Shown here in pieces: positions 7,133 to 17,166 of a stretch of 64,000 bases of DNA. The stretch covers positions 1-64,000 of the forward strand of contig CALWLL010000008.1 of the NCBI GenBank assembly GCA_944381555.1, given 5' to 3'. Source of the DNA: an uncultured Agathobacter sp. (GTDB lineage: Bacteria; Bacillota; Clostridia; Lachnospirales; Lachnospiraceae). The notes under the pieces were generated by a model that was not told where the DNA came from, did no database searches, and saw nothing but the letters and a program-made list of their open reading frames with translations. The translations under genes were made by a program, and so were the position numbers. Within the stretch, counting starts at the first letter, position 1; each line of letters begins with the position of its first letter.

Positions 7133-8491
7133 TTATAATTCGTTCATATCAATCAATTCAAAACGACGGTCTTTTTCCGCCATTTCAATGACCTTAGCAT
7201 CAAAAGCTTTTGCAGAAAATAAGTAGATATGGTTTGAACTAATTCTGGCCTTTTTCATCGAATCAAACAGTTCCGTACACATTTCCATGGTAAGAAACGG
7301 TTTTTCCCAATTACAAAGTCCCACAATATTTTCTCTTGCACTGTTCTGTGCAATAATATCAATATTTCCGGTCTTTCCAATCCATGTGCCCATTTTGCTT
7401 ACTGCAATCGGAAGACGATGAATCTGATTTAATAGAGACAGATACTCCATACAGACATTCACAAAGTATCTGCTCAAATATTCATCTAAATTTCTTTCAA
7501 TGTATGTGTCATAAAACTCTTCCGGGCTCATGATATATAAGTCAGAAAGATGCGGGTATACAAAGCGGTAATAGAAATTAATATACGTATCTTTTATCCG
7601 GTACACCCCCTTCTTTGCGTTGTCCCATCCTCCTGTTTCAAATGAAACTACTTTTTCTATAATATCAAAGTGACTTAAGTTCTTCATATAAACACTGATT
7701 TTCGGTCTGGAATATCCCGTATATAAAAACAGGTCATTTAGCTTGTTTTCACCCTTAGCAATTGCCATCAATATCGTATTATATACCGAAAGCTCACGGA
7801 GTTCAGAAGATATCAGTTCTTCTGCGGCAGCAAACAATCTGCCATTTTCCGAAAGAATCAAATCACAAATGTTCTGTCTAAATGTTTTCTTTTCATCCCA
7901 TACCTTTAAGTACCCCGGTACCCCGCCTAATACGCCGTATACTTTAATGGAATCACTCACCGAAAAATTAGGAAAAAGACGTACTACCTCTAAAAAATTC
8001 AGATTTGGAATCTTGATTATTGCATCCATCTTCTTTTTTGTATTTTGAATTACATTTTCCATATCCTGTTCCGTCCATACGATAGAGGAGCTTGCAAGAA
8101 TAATCATAACCGGTCCCGGATAGAGACGTTTGTCTTTCAGATTTAAAATACTACCCATAAATCCCGGATCTCTTTTCGCAATATGCTCAAATTCATCTAT
8201 TACAACTACAAGCTTTGATGGATTTCCGCTCTTTATGCGGTTAAAATATTCATCATAAGAAAACTTCTGGAGACGCACATCATATTTTTTTGCAATTTCC
8301 TCTCCCATCATAGCAAGCTGTTCTTTCGCAGAAGCCTTACGCGCACGATAATAGAAGAACTTCTTCTCTTTTACAAAGTTTCTAAGCAGTTCTTCCTTCC
8401 CGCAGTTTCTGGAACCATATAACACAACTAGCTGATTGCCGCTTTCTGCGTATAAATCTTCTAATCTCTTAAGTACACTTGTTTTAAACAT
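7133..8491 (-). CDS. AAA/ATPase_2-DUF234 type ATPase
   Basis: 452 residues. Residues about 20-210 resemble the P-loop ATPase of the archaeal ATPase/DUF234 family: a Walker A-like GSRNCGKE, Walker B VVVIDEFEHI, then a winged-helix segment (YTGYSRPKISVYMKNL) and a C-terminal DUF234/PD-(D/E)xK-like region (IDIIAQNSARENIVGLCNWEK). The residue after the P-loop lysine is Glu, not Ser/Thr, so ATP hydrolysis may be impaired. Start set at ATG 8491 with GGAG upstream; a TTG at 8530 is excluded because the promoter -10 sits directly against it. Function unknown. The 10-base gap to topB suggests a shared transcript. Confidence 0.65.
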   Translation of the reverse strand: MFKTSVLKRLEDLYAESGNQLVVLYGSRNCGKEELLRNFVKEKKFFYYRARKASAKEQLAMMGEEIAKKYDVRLQKFSYDEYFNRIKSGNPSKLVVVIDEFEHIAKRDPGFMGSILNLKDKRLYPGPVMIILASSSIVWTEQDMENVIQNTKKKMDAIIKIPNLNFLEVVRLFPNFSVSDSIKVYGVLGGVPGYLKVWDEKKTFRQNICDLILSENGRLFAAAEELISSELRELSVYNTILMAIAKGENKLNDLFLYTGYSRPKISVYMKNLSHFDIIEKVVSFETGGWDNAKKGVYRIKDTYINFYYRFVYPHLSDLYIMSPEEFYDTYIERNLDEYLSRYFVNVCMEYLSLLNQIHRLPIAVSKMGTWIGKTGNIDIIAQNSARENIVGLCNWEKPFLTMEMCTELFDSMKKARISSNHIYLFSAKAFDAKVIEMAEKDRRFELIDMNEL

Positions 8492-8532
8492 CCTGTTCTC
8501 CATTCTGAAGGGATTTATCTTGACCGTCAAAA

Positions 8533-11999: not shown

Positions 12000-12740
12000 T
12001 CAGGAATTTTCTATTTCTAATTCTTCAACAATATGTATTAAATCCTTTATAGGTTCTCCAGCCCGAAGCTTTTCTTTCAGCTTCATCCCGACCTTCATAT
12101 ATGATATTTGTTCCGGAATGATTCCGTCAGCGACACCCGGATATTGTGCTTTCAAATTATCTATAAGTATCTTAACCGTATGCTTACTTAAAATATCTGC
12201 ATAATGTTCTCTGCAATAGTTTTCTGTTTTCTCTACCAGCATCTTGTAAAAAGTTTGATCATCCGGGTCTGCGGTTCCCCCGAAAACTTCATTATCATAA
12301 ACCAGAACCCGATAAGCATTTTTCTTCAATAAGCAATTATCCCTAAATCTGACGAGTGGTAATAGCATTCCGTTCTCGCTGGCAAGACGTTTTCTGCTTT
12401 CCAACACCAAATTGGTATTAAGACCATCTCGTATCAACGGAATTAAGGACTCTGAGAATTCTACAAGAAGCGGTTCTGAAATTAAATTTGATTTTATTTC
12501 ATCAACCTCTACCGGATTCCCGCTCTCAACAACCCTTTCCGTAGTTCCAAACAATGTGTCTGCATTAATTCCCAATACTGTACATATTCCCTTAATCAAT
12601 GAGACATCCGGCAGTCCATTTCCTCTCTCCCACTTGCTGACAGCCTGTGGCGTTACTCCAAGCCTGGATGCAAACTCCTCCTGCGTCATCTTTTCCTTTT
12701 GCCTATACTGACAAATTATTTCACCTATGTCGTAGTTCAT
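12000..12740 (-). CDS. Xre-type HTH protein fused to an FlhA/FHIPEP C-terminal-like domain
   Basis: 246 residues. Residues 5-65 are a standard HTH_3 domain (MTQEEFASRLGVTPQAVSKWERG). After a short linker, residues about 90-243 follow the order of motifs in the cytoplasmic domain of the flagellar/type III export protein FlhA: ESLIPLI, ESRKRLASENG, LPLVRFRDN (126-135), LKKNAYRVLV, EVFGGTADPD, then KHTVKILIDNLKAQYP, IIPEQIS and IKDLIHIVEEL. FlhA membrane segments are absent and no flagellar or secretion gene is nearby. So it is a soluble DNA-binding protein that has borrowed the domain. What the domain senses is unknown. Start ATG 12740 behind GGAGGG. Confidence 0.75.
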   Translation of the reverse strand: MNYDIGEIICQYRQKEKMTQEEFASRLGVTPQAVSKWERGNGLPDVSLIKGICTVLGINADTLFGTTERVVESGNPVEVDEIKSNLISEPLLVEFSESLIPLIRDGLNTNLVLESRKRLASENGMLLPLVRFRDNCLLKKNAYRVLVYDNEVFGGTADPDDQTFYKMLVEKTENYCREHYADILSKHTVKILIDNLKAQYPGVADGIIPEQISYMKVGMKLKEKLRAGEPIKDLIHIVEELEIENS

Positions 12741-12840
12741 ATATCATGCCCTCCATTTCATTTTATATCACTATCGTACCAGTATAAGCATTACAGGTAA
12801 AACAACCTCCTGTTGACCTAAACTAAACATAAAACCGCAT

Positions 12841-12887: not shown

Positions 12888-13376
12888 TTAATTTTCTTCT
12901 TTCACAGTTTCTTTTGGCTTTCCCACTTCCTGTTTTTCTACTGCCGGATTCCCTTCTACCTTCTTAAACGCAAAATGAAGTGTAATCGTAGTTACTACAT
13001 ATGCTGCCGCACAAATGATCGTCAATGGTACCCTGTCAATTACAACACCTGCTACAATCTGTGCAACTAAAAGAATTGCATGAATCCACAGCTCTGATCT
13101 ATGTAATAATACTGCCATTGTAACTTCAAGAATCATAAGTATACACACAGGGACAACAAATTCGCTCCAGCAGATAACCGGTACAAAAATTAGTACCAGA
13201 ATAGACACGCAGAAAAAGAACAAGGAGAGAATCAAATGGTACTTTCCTGCAAGTTCCGCTAACTTCTTTAAGAAGTCAATCTTACTTAATTTTTCTTTTA
13301 CTTTTACCAAAGCCGGTTTTACCTTCGCCAATAATTCTTTTGCTTTATTCAAAACCTTTTTTAATTTTTCTTTCAT
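12888..13376 (-). CDS. Small membrane protein with basic amphipathic N-terminus, unknown
   Basis: 162 residues from ATG 13376 (GAGGTGA upstream). The first 45 residues are lysine-rich with a regular heptad-like pattern (KLKKVLNKAKELLAKVKPALVKVKEKL), likely an amphipathic helix on the inner membrane face. Four hydrophobic spans follow at roughly 49-69, 72-90, 98-114 and 118-136, then a charged Lys/Glu tail. No family recognised. Single-gene unit between a terminator and the tRNA-Thr promoter region. The 13377-13530 interval shows only A/T-rich sequence with a small ACCG/CCGGT inverted repeat. Confidence 0.6.
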   Translation of the reverse strand: MKEKLKKVLNKAKELLAKVKPALVKVKEKLSKIDFLKKLAELAGKYHLILSLFFFCVSILVLIFVPVICWSEFVVPVCILMILEVTMAVLLHRSELWIHAILLVAQIVAGVVIDRVPLTIICAAAYVVTTITLHFAFKKVEGNPAVEKQEVGKPKETVKEEN

Positions 13377-13530
13377 CAATTGTCACCTCAAAATCCGTTT
13401 TACCTTTGCAATTATACCAACTAATTTTTAAAAGAACAACAAAATAATAGAATTTACCGAAAATTTTCCGGTTTCTCTCTTTTCCAATATCCCGTAAAAC
13501 CGGCTACAACTGGCTAAAGAAAAAAATAAG

Positions 13531-13869: not shown

Positions 13870-14409
13870 ATGGATATTGGTAACCGTATGAAAGAGCTTC
13901 GAATCCAATATGGTCTCACACAGCAGGAACTTGCTGACCGTGCAGAGCTTACCAAAGGATTTATCTCACAGCTTGAACGTAATCAAAACACCCCATCTGT
14001 CAGTACACTGCTTGACATTATTCAGTGTCTCGGAACCACACCCGCAGAATTTTTTGCAGACGAAGAGCCCGAACAGATTGTTTTCAGAGAATCCGATTAT
14101 TTTGAAAAATCAGACGAGGGACACAATTCCCTCATAGAGTGGGTAGTACCGAATGCCCAGAAAAACTCTATGGAGCCGGTCCGCTTAACACTTCATCCGG
14201 GCGGAACCTCCGAAATCCTCCTTCCTCATGCAGGCGAGGAATTCGGTTATGTAATCAAAGGAACCATACGCATCAATTACGGAGGTAAAACGCAGACGGT
14301 CCGGGCAGGTGAATCCTTCTACTTCAAAGCTGGCAAACGCCACTATATAGAAAACAAATCCGGCAGAGATGCCGTTTTAATCTGGGTTTCCAACCCGCCA
14401 AGTTTTTAA
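13870..14409 (+). CDS. HTH-cupin transcriptional regulator
   Basis: 179 residues. Residues 1-65 are an Xre/HTH_3 domain (GLTQQELADRAELTKGFISQLE) and residues about 105-178 a cupin_2 barrel (HPGGTSEILLPHAGEEFGYVIKG, then AGESFYFKAGKRHYIEN). This is the architecture of PuuR-like regulators of polyamine genes. It starts behind a perfect AGGAGG and ends 18 bases before potA, so it is first gene of the potABCD operon. Likely role: sense a polyamine or related ligand in the cupin and control this operon, inferred from position. Confidence 0.88.
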   Translation: MDIGNRMKELRIQYGLTQQELADRAELTKGFISQLERNQNTPSVSTLLDIIQCLGTTPAEFFADEEPEQIVFRESDYFEKSDEGHNSLIEWVVPNAQKNSMEPVRLTLHPGGTSEILLPHAGEEFGYVIKGTIRINYGGKTQTVRAGESFYFKAGKRHYIENKSGRDAVLIWVSNPPSF

Positions 14410-14427
14410 TTGCGAAAGGGATACGAC

Positions 14428-15501
14428 ATGAAAAAGAAATTAATTAACTTTGTGGATATTTCCAAATCTTATGATAAACAGTTAGTTTTAGATGAATTTA
14501 ACCTATATGTTCTGGAAAACGAATTTGTCACATTACTTGGCCCTTCCGGCTGCGGAAAAACCACTACGCTTCGTCTTTTAGGCGGTTTTGAAACACCGGA
14601 CAAGGGACAGATTTATTTCGATTCACAGGATATTACATATCTTCCTGCAAATGAAAGAAGACTAAACACCGTCTTCCAGAAATATTCTCTTTTTCCACAT
14701 ATGTCGATTGCAGAAAACATTGCTTTTGGCTTAAAAATCAGTAAAAAGAGTAAAGCATACATCGATGATAAAATCAAATATGCTTTAAAACTGGTCAATT
14801 TAGATGGGTTTGAAAACCGCTCTATTGATTCACTAAGCGGCGGCCAGCAACAGCGTATCGCTATTGCCCGCGCGATTGTAAATGAACCAAAGGTTCTTCT
14901 TCTTGATGAACCGCTTGGCGCATTAGACCTTAAAATGCGTCAAAGTATGCAGTACGAATTGATTCGTTTAAAAGAAGAACTTGGTATTACCTTCGTATAT
15001 GTTACACACGATCAGGAAGAAGCACTTACCATTTCTGATACCATTGTTGTAATGAATCAGGGTTATATCCAGCAGATTGGTACGCCGGAGATGATTTATA
15101 ACGAGCCGGAAAATGCATTCGTTGCTGACTTTATCGGTGAAAGCAACATTATTGATGCAACCTTTATTCAGGATGAAGTCGTTGAAATTCTTGGTGTAAA
15201 AATGCCATGTGTCGACAAGGGATTTGGACAAAATACTCCTGTTGACGTTGTCATCCGGCCGGAAGACGTAGAACTTGTAGAGCCATCCGAAGGTTCCTTT
15301 GAGGGCGACGTGACTTCTCTTATCTTCAAAGGTGTTCACTATGAATTAGACGTTATGGCAAACGGCTATGAATGGCTTGTACACACCACAAAGTTGGTTC
15401 CGGTTGGTACCCATGTCGGTATTAAGGTAACACCATTTAACATTCAGATTATGAAAAAACCGGAAAGTGCAGATGAGGAGGCAGTAGAAATCGATGAATA
15501 G
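14428..15501 (+). CDS. potA: Spermidine/putrescine ABC transporter ATP-binding protein
   Basis: 357 residues from ATG 14428 (AAAGGG upstream; a TTG at 14410 is less likely). It powers polyamine import. ABC signatures in order: Walker [11 protein letters not shown]-loop FQKYSLFPH, signature LSGGQQQR, Walker [13 protein letters not shown]-loop VTHDQEEA. The C-terminal part (about 240-357) is a TOBE-type domain ([14 protein letters not shown]). It overlaps potB by 8 bases. Complete operon potA-B-C-D follows. Confidence 0.95.
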
Positions 15502-16321
15502 AATTAAGCAACAGTTTCTTGCCGGTCCATATCTTGTATGGATCATTGGCTTTATCCTTCTTCCGCTTGCCATGATTCTGTACTATGCATTTTTTAACGA
15601 AGACGGGACCTTTACATTAGACAATATTGCATCTATTGCAGATCCAGTTAATTTAAAGGCAATGGGACTTTCCTTAGAATTAGGCGTAATCTGTACGCTT
15701 ATCTGTCTGCTTCTTGCCTACCCTCTTGCTATGATTCTTAATAATCTTCACATTAAGAACCAGAGCTTTGTCGTGTTTGTATTCATGCTTCCGATGTGGA
15801 TGAACTTTATGCTGCGTATTCTTGCATGGAAGCTGCTCCTGAATAAAAACGGTGTGTTAAATACCATCCTCTTATCTTTGGGAATGGAAAGAATCACGAT
15901 CCTGAACACGCCTGCTGCTGTTGTATTTGGTATGGTATATGACTATCTTCCATTTATGATTCTTCCAATCTATAACGCTATGGCAAGAATCAAGAAGGAC
16001 TACATAGAGGCAGCCCATGATTTAGGCGCGAACAATTTTACAGTCTTTTTCAAAATTATTGTTCCATTAACGGTATCCGGCATAATAAGCGGTATTGTAA
16101 TGGTATTCGTTCCTGCACTTACCTCTTTTGCAATATCAGAACTTCTTGGCGGCGGCAAGGTTCTTCTGATTGGCAATATTATTGAAGAAAGCTTTATGCA
16201 GGGTATGCAATGGAATATCGGAAGCGGCTTATCTTTTGTACTGATGGTATTTGTAATGATAAGCATGGCAATTACCAATGCCTTTGACAAAGACGGGGAA
16301 GGAGGAACGGCTGTATGGTAA
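15494..16321 (+). CDS. potB: Spermidine/putrescine ABC permease PotB
   Basis: 275 residues with six membrane spans. First span [18 protein letters not shown]. The EAA loop that docks on PotA is visible as [20 protein letters not shown]. Paired with PotC to form the channel. The start overlaps the potA stop and the stop overlaps the potC start, so translation is coupled through the operon. Confidence 0.93.
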
Positions 16322-17166
16322 AACAAAACTCTCCGGGTTCTTGCAGAAACCGCAATGCTCTTTTAAGCAGGCGCACAACGAACCTATTATCAAAGACCTA
16401 TATGGCTTTCATTTTCCTCTTTTTATATCTGCCGATTTTTGTGTTAATCGTACTCTCCTTCAACGATTCCAAAACGCGCGTGGAATGGGGCGGATTTACA
16501 TTAAAATGGTATGTGGAATGTTTCCAGAGCGAAACCATTATGTCAGCATTTGCTACAACTTTGCAAATCACTTTGATTTCTGCTGTTATTTCCACAATCA
16601 TTGGAACTATGGCAGCAATGGGAATCAGCAAAATGAAACGCAAAAGCCGTACCTTCTACTTAGGTGCAACAAATATTCCATTATTAAATGCAGATATCGT
16701 TACCGGTATCTCCATGATGCTTTTATTTGTGAAGTTCATTGATTTAGGCTTTGTTACCGTCTTGATTGCACATATTACTTTTAGTATTCCATATGTAATT
16801 TTAAATGTTCTTCCTAAATTAAAAGCTGCAAACCACTCCACCTACGAAGCTGCGTTAGATTTAGGCGCCACACCGCTCTACGCTTTTTACAAAGTAACAT
16901 GGCCGGAAATCCGCTCCGGTGTTTTCTCCGGATTTTTAATGGCAGTAACCATGTCGTTAGATGATTTCAGTATTACCTACTTTACAAAAGGGGCCGGTGT
17001 AAATACACTTTCAACCATGCTTTATACAGAGCTTCGTAAAGGGATTAAGCCGGAGTTATATGCTCTGTCTACTATTTTATTCTTTACTGTATTGATTCTT
17101 CTTCTTGCTGTTAATTATCATCCTTCTAAGAAGACTCCTTCCAGAGCAAAAGAAGATTTTGTGTAA
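16315..17166 (+). CDS. potC: Spermidine/putrescine ABC permease PotC
   Basis: 283 residues, six membrane spans, with the EAA loop EAALDLGATPLYAFYKVTWP and the family segment SLDDFSITYFTKGAG. Start ATG 16315 has GGAGGA upstream and overlaps potB. The N-terminus is about 20-25 residues longer than usual PotC (basic, before MAFIFLFLYLP); an internal start cannot be excluded. Confidence 0.93.
   Translation: MVKQNSPGSCRNRNALLSRRTTNLLSKTYMAFIFLFLYLPIFVLIVLSFNDSKTRVEWGGFTLKWYVECFQSETIMSAFATTLQITLISAVISTIIGTMAAMGISKMKRKSRTFYLGATNIPLLNADIVTGISMMLLFVKFIDLGFVTVLIAHITFSIPYVILNVLPKLKAANHSTYEAALDLGATPLYAFYKVTWPEIRSGVFSGFLMAVTMSLDDFSITYFTKGAGVNTLSTMLYTELRKGIKPELYALSTILFFTVLILLLAVNYHPSKKTPSRAKEDFV

Follow-up and report, generated by a model that had tools for sequence, protein, structure and literature searches.

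An open reading frame of 246 amino acids in the genome of an uncultured Agathobacter sp. joins an Xre-type helix-turn-helix (HTH) domain to two parts of the cytoplasmic domain of FlhA, the flagellar export-gate protein, and its relatives form a group of their own that, in the genomes sampled, occurs in flagellated bacteria. The gene lies in a 64,000-nucleotide stretch of that genome, which we call the window. We favour, tentatively, the reading that the protein is an autoregulated, flagellum-linked accessory regulator that senses the export gate through contacts of the type made by FlhA subdomains D1 and D3.

The coding sequence (12000..12740, minus strand) was defined by the ORF call together with Pfam and NCBIfam matches. 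An Xre/Cro-CI type HTH spans residues ~6-65 (12546..12725, minus strand), where Pfam HTH_3 matches residues 11-62 at 8e-14 (51.9 bits against a gathering score of 23) and HTH_19 matches residues 6-64. FHIPEP covers residues ~78-241 in two stretches at 9.9e-18 (64.4 bits; gathering score, 29.1). The NCBIfam FlhA model also matches (1.1e-18), and because its 66.9 bits lie far under the equivalog cut-off of 772.1, we regard the protein as carrying a fragment of FlhA and not as an FlhA. The match starts at profile position 320, skips ~410-454 and ends at ~531 of 657, and thus corresponds to D1 plus D3 without D2 and D4. By profile match and alignment, the first part (12252..12509, minus strand; profile 320-408) is D1 with its R...G...P..R.RD motif kept. 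At the junction of the two matches (12246..12251, minus strand), ~45 residues of D2 that include the chaperone dimple are missing, and the second part (12015..12245, minus strand; profile 455-531) holds the end of D1 followed by D3, just after which the chain ends with D4 absent. The N-terminal membrane domain of FlhA is absent as well, and the HTH stands where it would be.

A PDB sequence search with the C-terminal half returned 14 distinct sequences to E 1, all of them FlhA, with 3mix as the best at 4.8e-12. A profile built from 17 relatives reached this Bacillus subtilis FlhA at 3.1e-30 in one continuous stretch, and also reached injectisome homologues more weakly, while FHIPEP and HTH_3 were both matched in 18/18 members of our alignment A1. 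Homology of the C-terminal half to the FlhA cytoplasmic domain is therefore secure at the sequence level, and the presence of 29 relatives across many genomes rules out an artefact. An earlier note on this DNA had described an Xre HTH joined to the cytoplasmic part of FlhA in place of its membrane part, which was right. It had also assigned residues 90-243 to the FlhA cytoplasmic domain; this stands for D1 and D3 and fails for the whole C-domain, as D2 and D4 are missing. The unrelated fold that would have contradicted this assignment was not found by the sequence profile.

Alignment of 29 fusions with 54 FlhA sequences shows what the FlhA-derived half kept and lost. The D2 stretch is reduced to 8-19 residues in 27/29 fusions, with 14 in the window protein, against 54-55 residues in 54/54 FlhA. 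Two fusions (L151 of genome G173 and L166 of genome G669) retain 48-49 residues of a degenerate D2, including the Trp of the motif that D2 has in FlhA, and in the alignment look like steps toward D2 loss. Only 4-46 residues follow D3 in the fusions as against 136-140 in FlhA, which places D4 among the lost parts. The equivalents of R391, G399, P403 and D409 are each kept in 28/29 fusions and the D3 proline P529 in 29/29 (labels that the papers cited here do not mention follow what we take to be Salmonella FlhA numbering). In 27/29 fusions the alignment has gaps at Asp456 and Phe459, the Thr490 position holds Thr in 1/29, and the Tyr of the GYxLI motif, present in 54/54 FlhA, is replaced by Glu in the window protein (among the 29 fusions, E in 12, V in 4, S in 4, A in 4, T in 2 and M in 1). 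For the single unsaturated pair out of three tested, dN/dS was 0.19 overall and 0.22 in the FlhA part, which indicates purifying selection in that pair.

In Salmonella FlhA, chaperone-substrate complexes dock in a dimple between D1 and D2 that includes Asp456, Phe459 and Thr490 (PMC8166844, PMC9431611). As these residues are either deleted with D2 or replaced, the window protein is unlikely to act as a chaperone dock in the known way. We rejected a chaperone reader as the main reading on this alignment, and the earlier suggestion of a regulator that reads a chaperone signal is weakened accordingly.

At least 32 of the sampled genomes carry the fusion in whole or broken copies, the broken or partial ones being in G174, G045, G409 and G611. 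It was found in 12/62 genomes of the window's genus. Among the matches listed for 397 genomes of the family (to ~E 5e-28), at least 16 genomes, own genome included, have a recognisable fusion; among the same 397, G409 holds a 142-aa fragment. The 392 genomes of the order, which we take to be Lachnospirales, added four more, namely G710, G746 and G669 of another family, plus G611, which has a fragment. At the phylum level (348 genomes, E 1e-28 or better), our own fusion is the only one among the matches listed, and the remaining matches sit in open frames as long as FlhA (677-750 aa). A contig scan of named relatives also found two loci whose match is confined to the HTH side. In the phylogenetic tree, 29 fusions lie on one side of a branch and 54 FlhA on the other with support of 100/100, in a midpoint-rooted drawing with long branches flagged and a bootstrap that had yet to settle. 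The fusions evolve fast and group together, separate from FlhA. The FlhA set consists of 54 of 68 loci, the remaining 14 having been dropped when the motif filter did not find them. L010/L153 (G174), which has stops, was left out of both A1 and the tree. L046 (G210), which has Ns, was left out of A1 and is present in the tree as L145; L008 (G045), with an internal deletion, was left out of a second alignment, A2; and the fragments of G409 and G611 are not in the tree.

The region upstream of the fusion carries an operator-like box, AACAGGAGGTTGTTTTAC, with the dyad AAC-N5-GTT (12797..12814, minus strand), which is common to most relatives' own promoters. A putative -35 element, TTTACC (12796..12801, minus strand), placed by aligning 23 promoters, overlaps the box, and the predicted -10 element, TACGAT (12773..12778, minus strand), is preceded by TG and separated by a 17 bp spacer, as judged from the promoter alignment and the sequence. 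In most fusion copies, the box AAC-N5-GTTGTTTTAC likewise lies over the gene's own -35 element. At least 12 of the 16 consensus positions were matched in 23/28 upstream stretches versus 20/5600 shuffled ones, the consensus having been drawn from the same upstream sequences that were scored. Using the right half-box as the sole anchor, which removes most of this consensus bias, 23/28 stretches matched with two or fewer mismatches, 14 of them exactly, and the three bases of the left half AAC were present in 21, 20 and 19 of the 23. The -10 element keeps a fixed spacing of 17 bp from a TTTACA-like -35, with its first T and A in 21/23 and its final T in 21/23. Five of the 28 promoters fail the anchored count, including that of L149, whose exact box lies too close to the edge; L146 was left out of the upstream set, its stretch being too short. 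A generic promoter scan did not list the fusion's promoter.

Conservation of the box across these promoters makes it a candidate operator, to which the fusion may bind to regulate its own gene. We estimate that the dyad centre lies ~43 bases before the expected transcription start. A repressor at that position blocks the -35 element, and some activators also sit there. Since both kinds of regulator use such a position, the sign of autoregulation is a matter we infer, repression being more likely than activation. A further exact copy of the box occurs at L162:3362 (minus strand; G409:C68); all that this stretch holds of a fusion is the 142-aa frame covering part of the FlhA-like half, which is a decayed or incomplete copy.

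Searches for further targets of the box returned little beyond the fusions themselves. Our own genome has one exact box, at the fusion's own promoter. Summed over 23 genomes, there is no genome-wide excess, with 152 matches at one or no mismatch versus 174 for the reversed control, and among the matches listed over these genomes, 11 of 14 exact boxes are at fusions with the other three inside ORFs. In 20 further stretches chosen from these matches, 20 of 21 box matches, the three exact ones included, lie inside ORFs drawn by script. The one match between ORFs (G222:C73) directly precedes a lipoprotein-like ORF within a repeated stretch, where CCGTTGTTTTA recurs (L199:5739, plus strand; G222:C73:95238). 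Across 26 flagellar-operon and flagellin stretches, of which those of our own genome reach the FlgB-like start of the operon, we found no inter-ORF box at two or fewer mismatches and no exact CAAC-N5-GTTG. With no box in these stretches and no excess in the 23 genomes, no flagellar target is in sight, and a flagellar regulon sharing the same box was rejected. The box is not a general Xre operator either: 21 non-fusion Xre loci gave three matches at two or fewer mismatches, one of them ~700 bases upstream of the HTH gene and none directly before it.

Because no flagellar targets were found, two other readings stay alive. The first is a modulator acting at the protein level, whose D1+D3 half would attach to FlhA or FlhA partners so as to adjust or block either export or the assembly of the ring, and whose HTH would do no more than limit its own expression. 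A genome whose only exact box is at the fusion's own promoter fits this account, as do the retention of D1 and D3 with loss of D2 and D4, and a distribution limited to flagellates in the sample. It is harder to reconcile with the GYxLI Tyr, which all 54 FlhA sequences have and which is not among the common fusion residues, and co-assembly of fast-evolving fusions with a well-conserved FlhA is not obvious. We consider such a modulator unlikely.

The second reading turns on how closely the fusion is tied to flagella. Our own genome has a full FlhA (G000:C56) plus flagellins. A full FlhA is found in 12/12 carriers of the genus, but this count says little because 57/62 genus genomes have an FlhA match anyway. 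Outside the genus, flagellin was found in 20/20 carriers (21/21 including our own genome), against a background of 110/200 in a family sample of 200 genomes. Within that sample, 9/9 carriers are flagellin-positive, including those with the broken copies (G045 and G174); the hypergeometric p of 0.004, or 0.007 without our own genome, is only a guide, as the genomes are related. Of 11 carriers checked singly, nine have a full or nearly full FlhA, and in the assemblies of G333 and G174 a full FlhA was not found though flagellin is present. With flagellar genes in every carrier tested, the complete change of use of the fold that the earlier note had raised is weakened. In the second reading, D1+D3 would serve an Xre repressor of other genes as a module for oligomerisation or ligand binding, and the flagellar link would be one of ancestry only. 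The high divergence of the fusions, the search results for flagellar targets and conserved flagellar neighbours, neither of which turned up, and the presence of queH and an HTH-cupin regulator nearby in the window all agree with this; the flagellin counts outside the genus speak against it, and we judge it rather improbable.

The gene neighbourhood gives no sign of a conserved next-door partner. Over 32 stretches around fusions there is no conserved flagellar neighbour, and besides the fusion only one gene cluster occurs in more than four of them (11 stretches; ABC-ATPase-like as we read it). Local synteny is common to four genus members. Comparison of the window with the ORFs of four flagellar stretches from our own genome, which is not a full annotation, returned just a match of a CheY-like ORF at 21.3-21.6 kb and one short match at 37 kb besides the fusion. 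A type II toxin-antitoxin pair was rejected, as no next-door partner is conserved over 29 loci. The window site has a 163-aa gene (12888-13379, minus strand) for which Pfam gave no match and which is, across much of the genus, a divergently oriented neighbour of queH. This gene and queH are near each other in 19/29 other genus loci (30 loci in all), none with the fusion; these 19, in which both genes were found, are the comparable loci. The gap between the two varies to ~1.2 kb, often with another ORF, and measures 135 bases in G211 versus 962 in the window genome. Since the neighbours lie together without the fusion in 19/19 comparable loci, the fusion was gained or lost at this site as a single gene that has its own promoter.

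We also compared the protein with collections of mobile and defence genes. The FlhA-like part has a 3.1e-8 match to a PHROGs family of unknown function, whose 579 positions suggest an FlhA-like protein. PADLOC matches, to 17 families, are all in the HTH only. Most of the plasmid records listed (8 of 10) and both phage records (2 of 2) have FlhA length with D2, and two are annotated flhA; these look like ordinary FlhA, and phage or plasmid cargo was rejected. Two phage-deposited records, MT835480.1 and MT835847.1, hold an FlhA-like stretch and may be bacterial contigs. A mobile or defence-type single gene spread horizontally, for example one tied to flagella-binding phages, is improbable: the patchy presence in the genus, the mostly unconserved context, the lone insert at the window site, the broken or partial copies in four genomes and the PHROGs match would suit it, whereas the PADLOC matches confined to the HTH and the plasmid and phage records of FlhA length do not.

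Under the favoured reading, the fusion would be a single-gene accessory transcription regulator in flagellated bacteria of the window's order. Its HTH would bind the dyad overlapping its own -35 region and so set its own level, and may act on further targets. Through contact with FlhA itself or with the partners of D1 and D3, the D1+D3 half would sense what state the flagellar export gate is in, and this binding would alter the occupancy of DNA by the HTH. In FlhA, the linker of one subunit stabilises the ring by binding D1 and D3 of the next (PMC8166844), which makes D1 and D3 natural contact surfaces. Carried further, and with more doubt, the fusion may be a plug-in mimic of the export gate that moves horizontally or is repeatedly lost: a soluble one-protein checkpoint, made of a piece of FlhA and a DNA-binding domain through stepwise loss of D2, that couples transcription to gate state in some flagellates.

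Known systems resemble parts of this arrangement. The fusion has D1, D3 and common motifs that are homologous to those of FlhA (SctV/FHIPEP), but differs in having no membrane part, D2 dimple or D4, in the HTH placed in front and in its fast evolution. It is similar to Xre/Cro-CI (HTH_3) regulators in its N-terminal HTH and in the dyad box overlapping its own promoter, and unlike them in that its C-terminal half is derived from FlhA. FlgM acts on sigma-28 (FliA) and, unlike the fusion, does not combine FlhA homology with an HTH. FlgM of Helicobacter pylori is thought to be relieved when it contacts the cytoplasmic domain of FlhA (PMC3930126), a precedent for this domain acting on transcription by contact. 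The same paper describes FlgS/FlgR of Helicobacter and Campylobacter, in which gene control depends on the export apparatus, FlhA included. The fusion would work like FlgS/FlgR in tying gene control to the export apparatus; that system is two-component, RpoN-based and made of separate proteins, whereas the fusion would combine a gate-derived and a DNA-binding part in one soluble protein.

In the literature searched, which was mostly without subscription journals, we found no description of FHIPEP combined with a helix-turn-helix and no report of FHIPEP in Lachnospiraceae, and within the same literature, flagellar control involving FlhA in such bacteria looks thinly covered. If the favoured reading holds, a regulator derived from the export gate itself would report gate state in a single protein, and the fusion would offer a natural minimal D1+D3 module for probing the function of these subdomains without the chaperone site, along with a promoter box ready for reporter assays. 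Elsewhere in the window, we noted a 465-aa protein with ATPase_2 and DUF234 matches (7133-8530, minus strand), and the HTH-cupin regulator followed by ORFs that, read by eye, we take to resemble an ABC ATPase and two permeases (13870-17166, plus strand).
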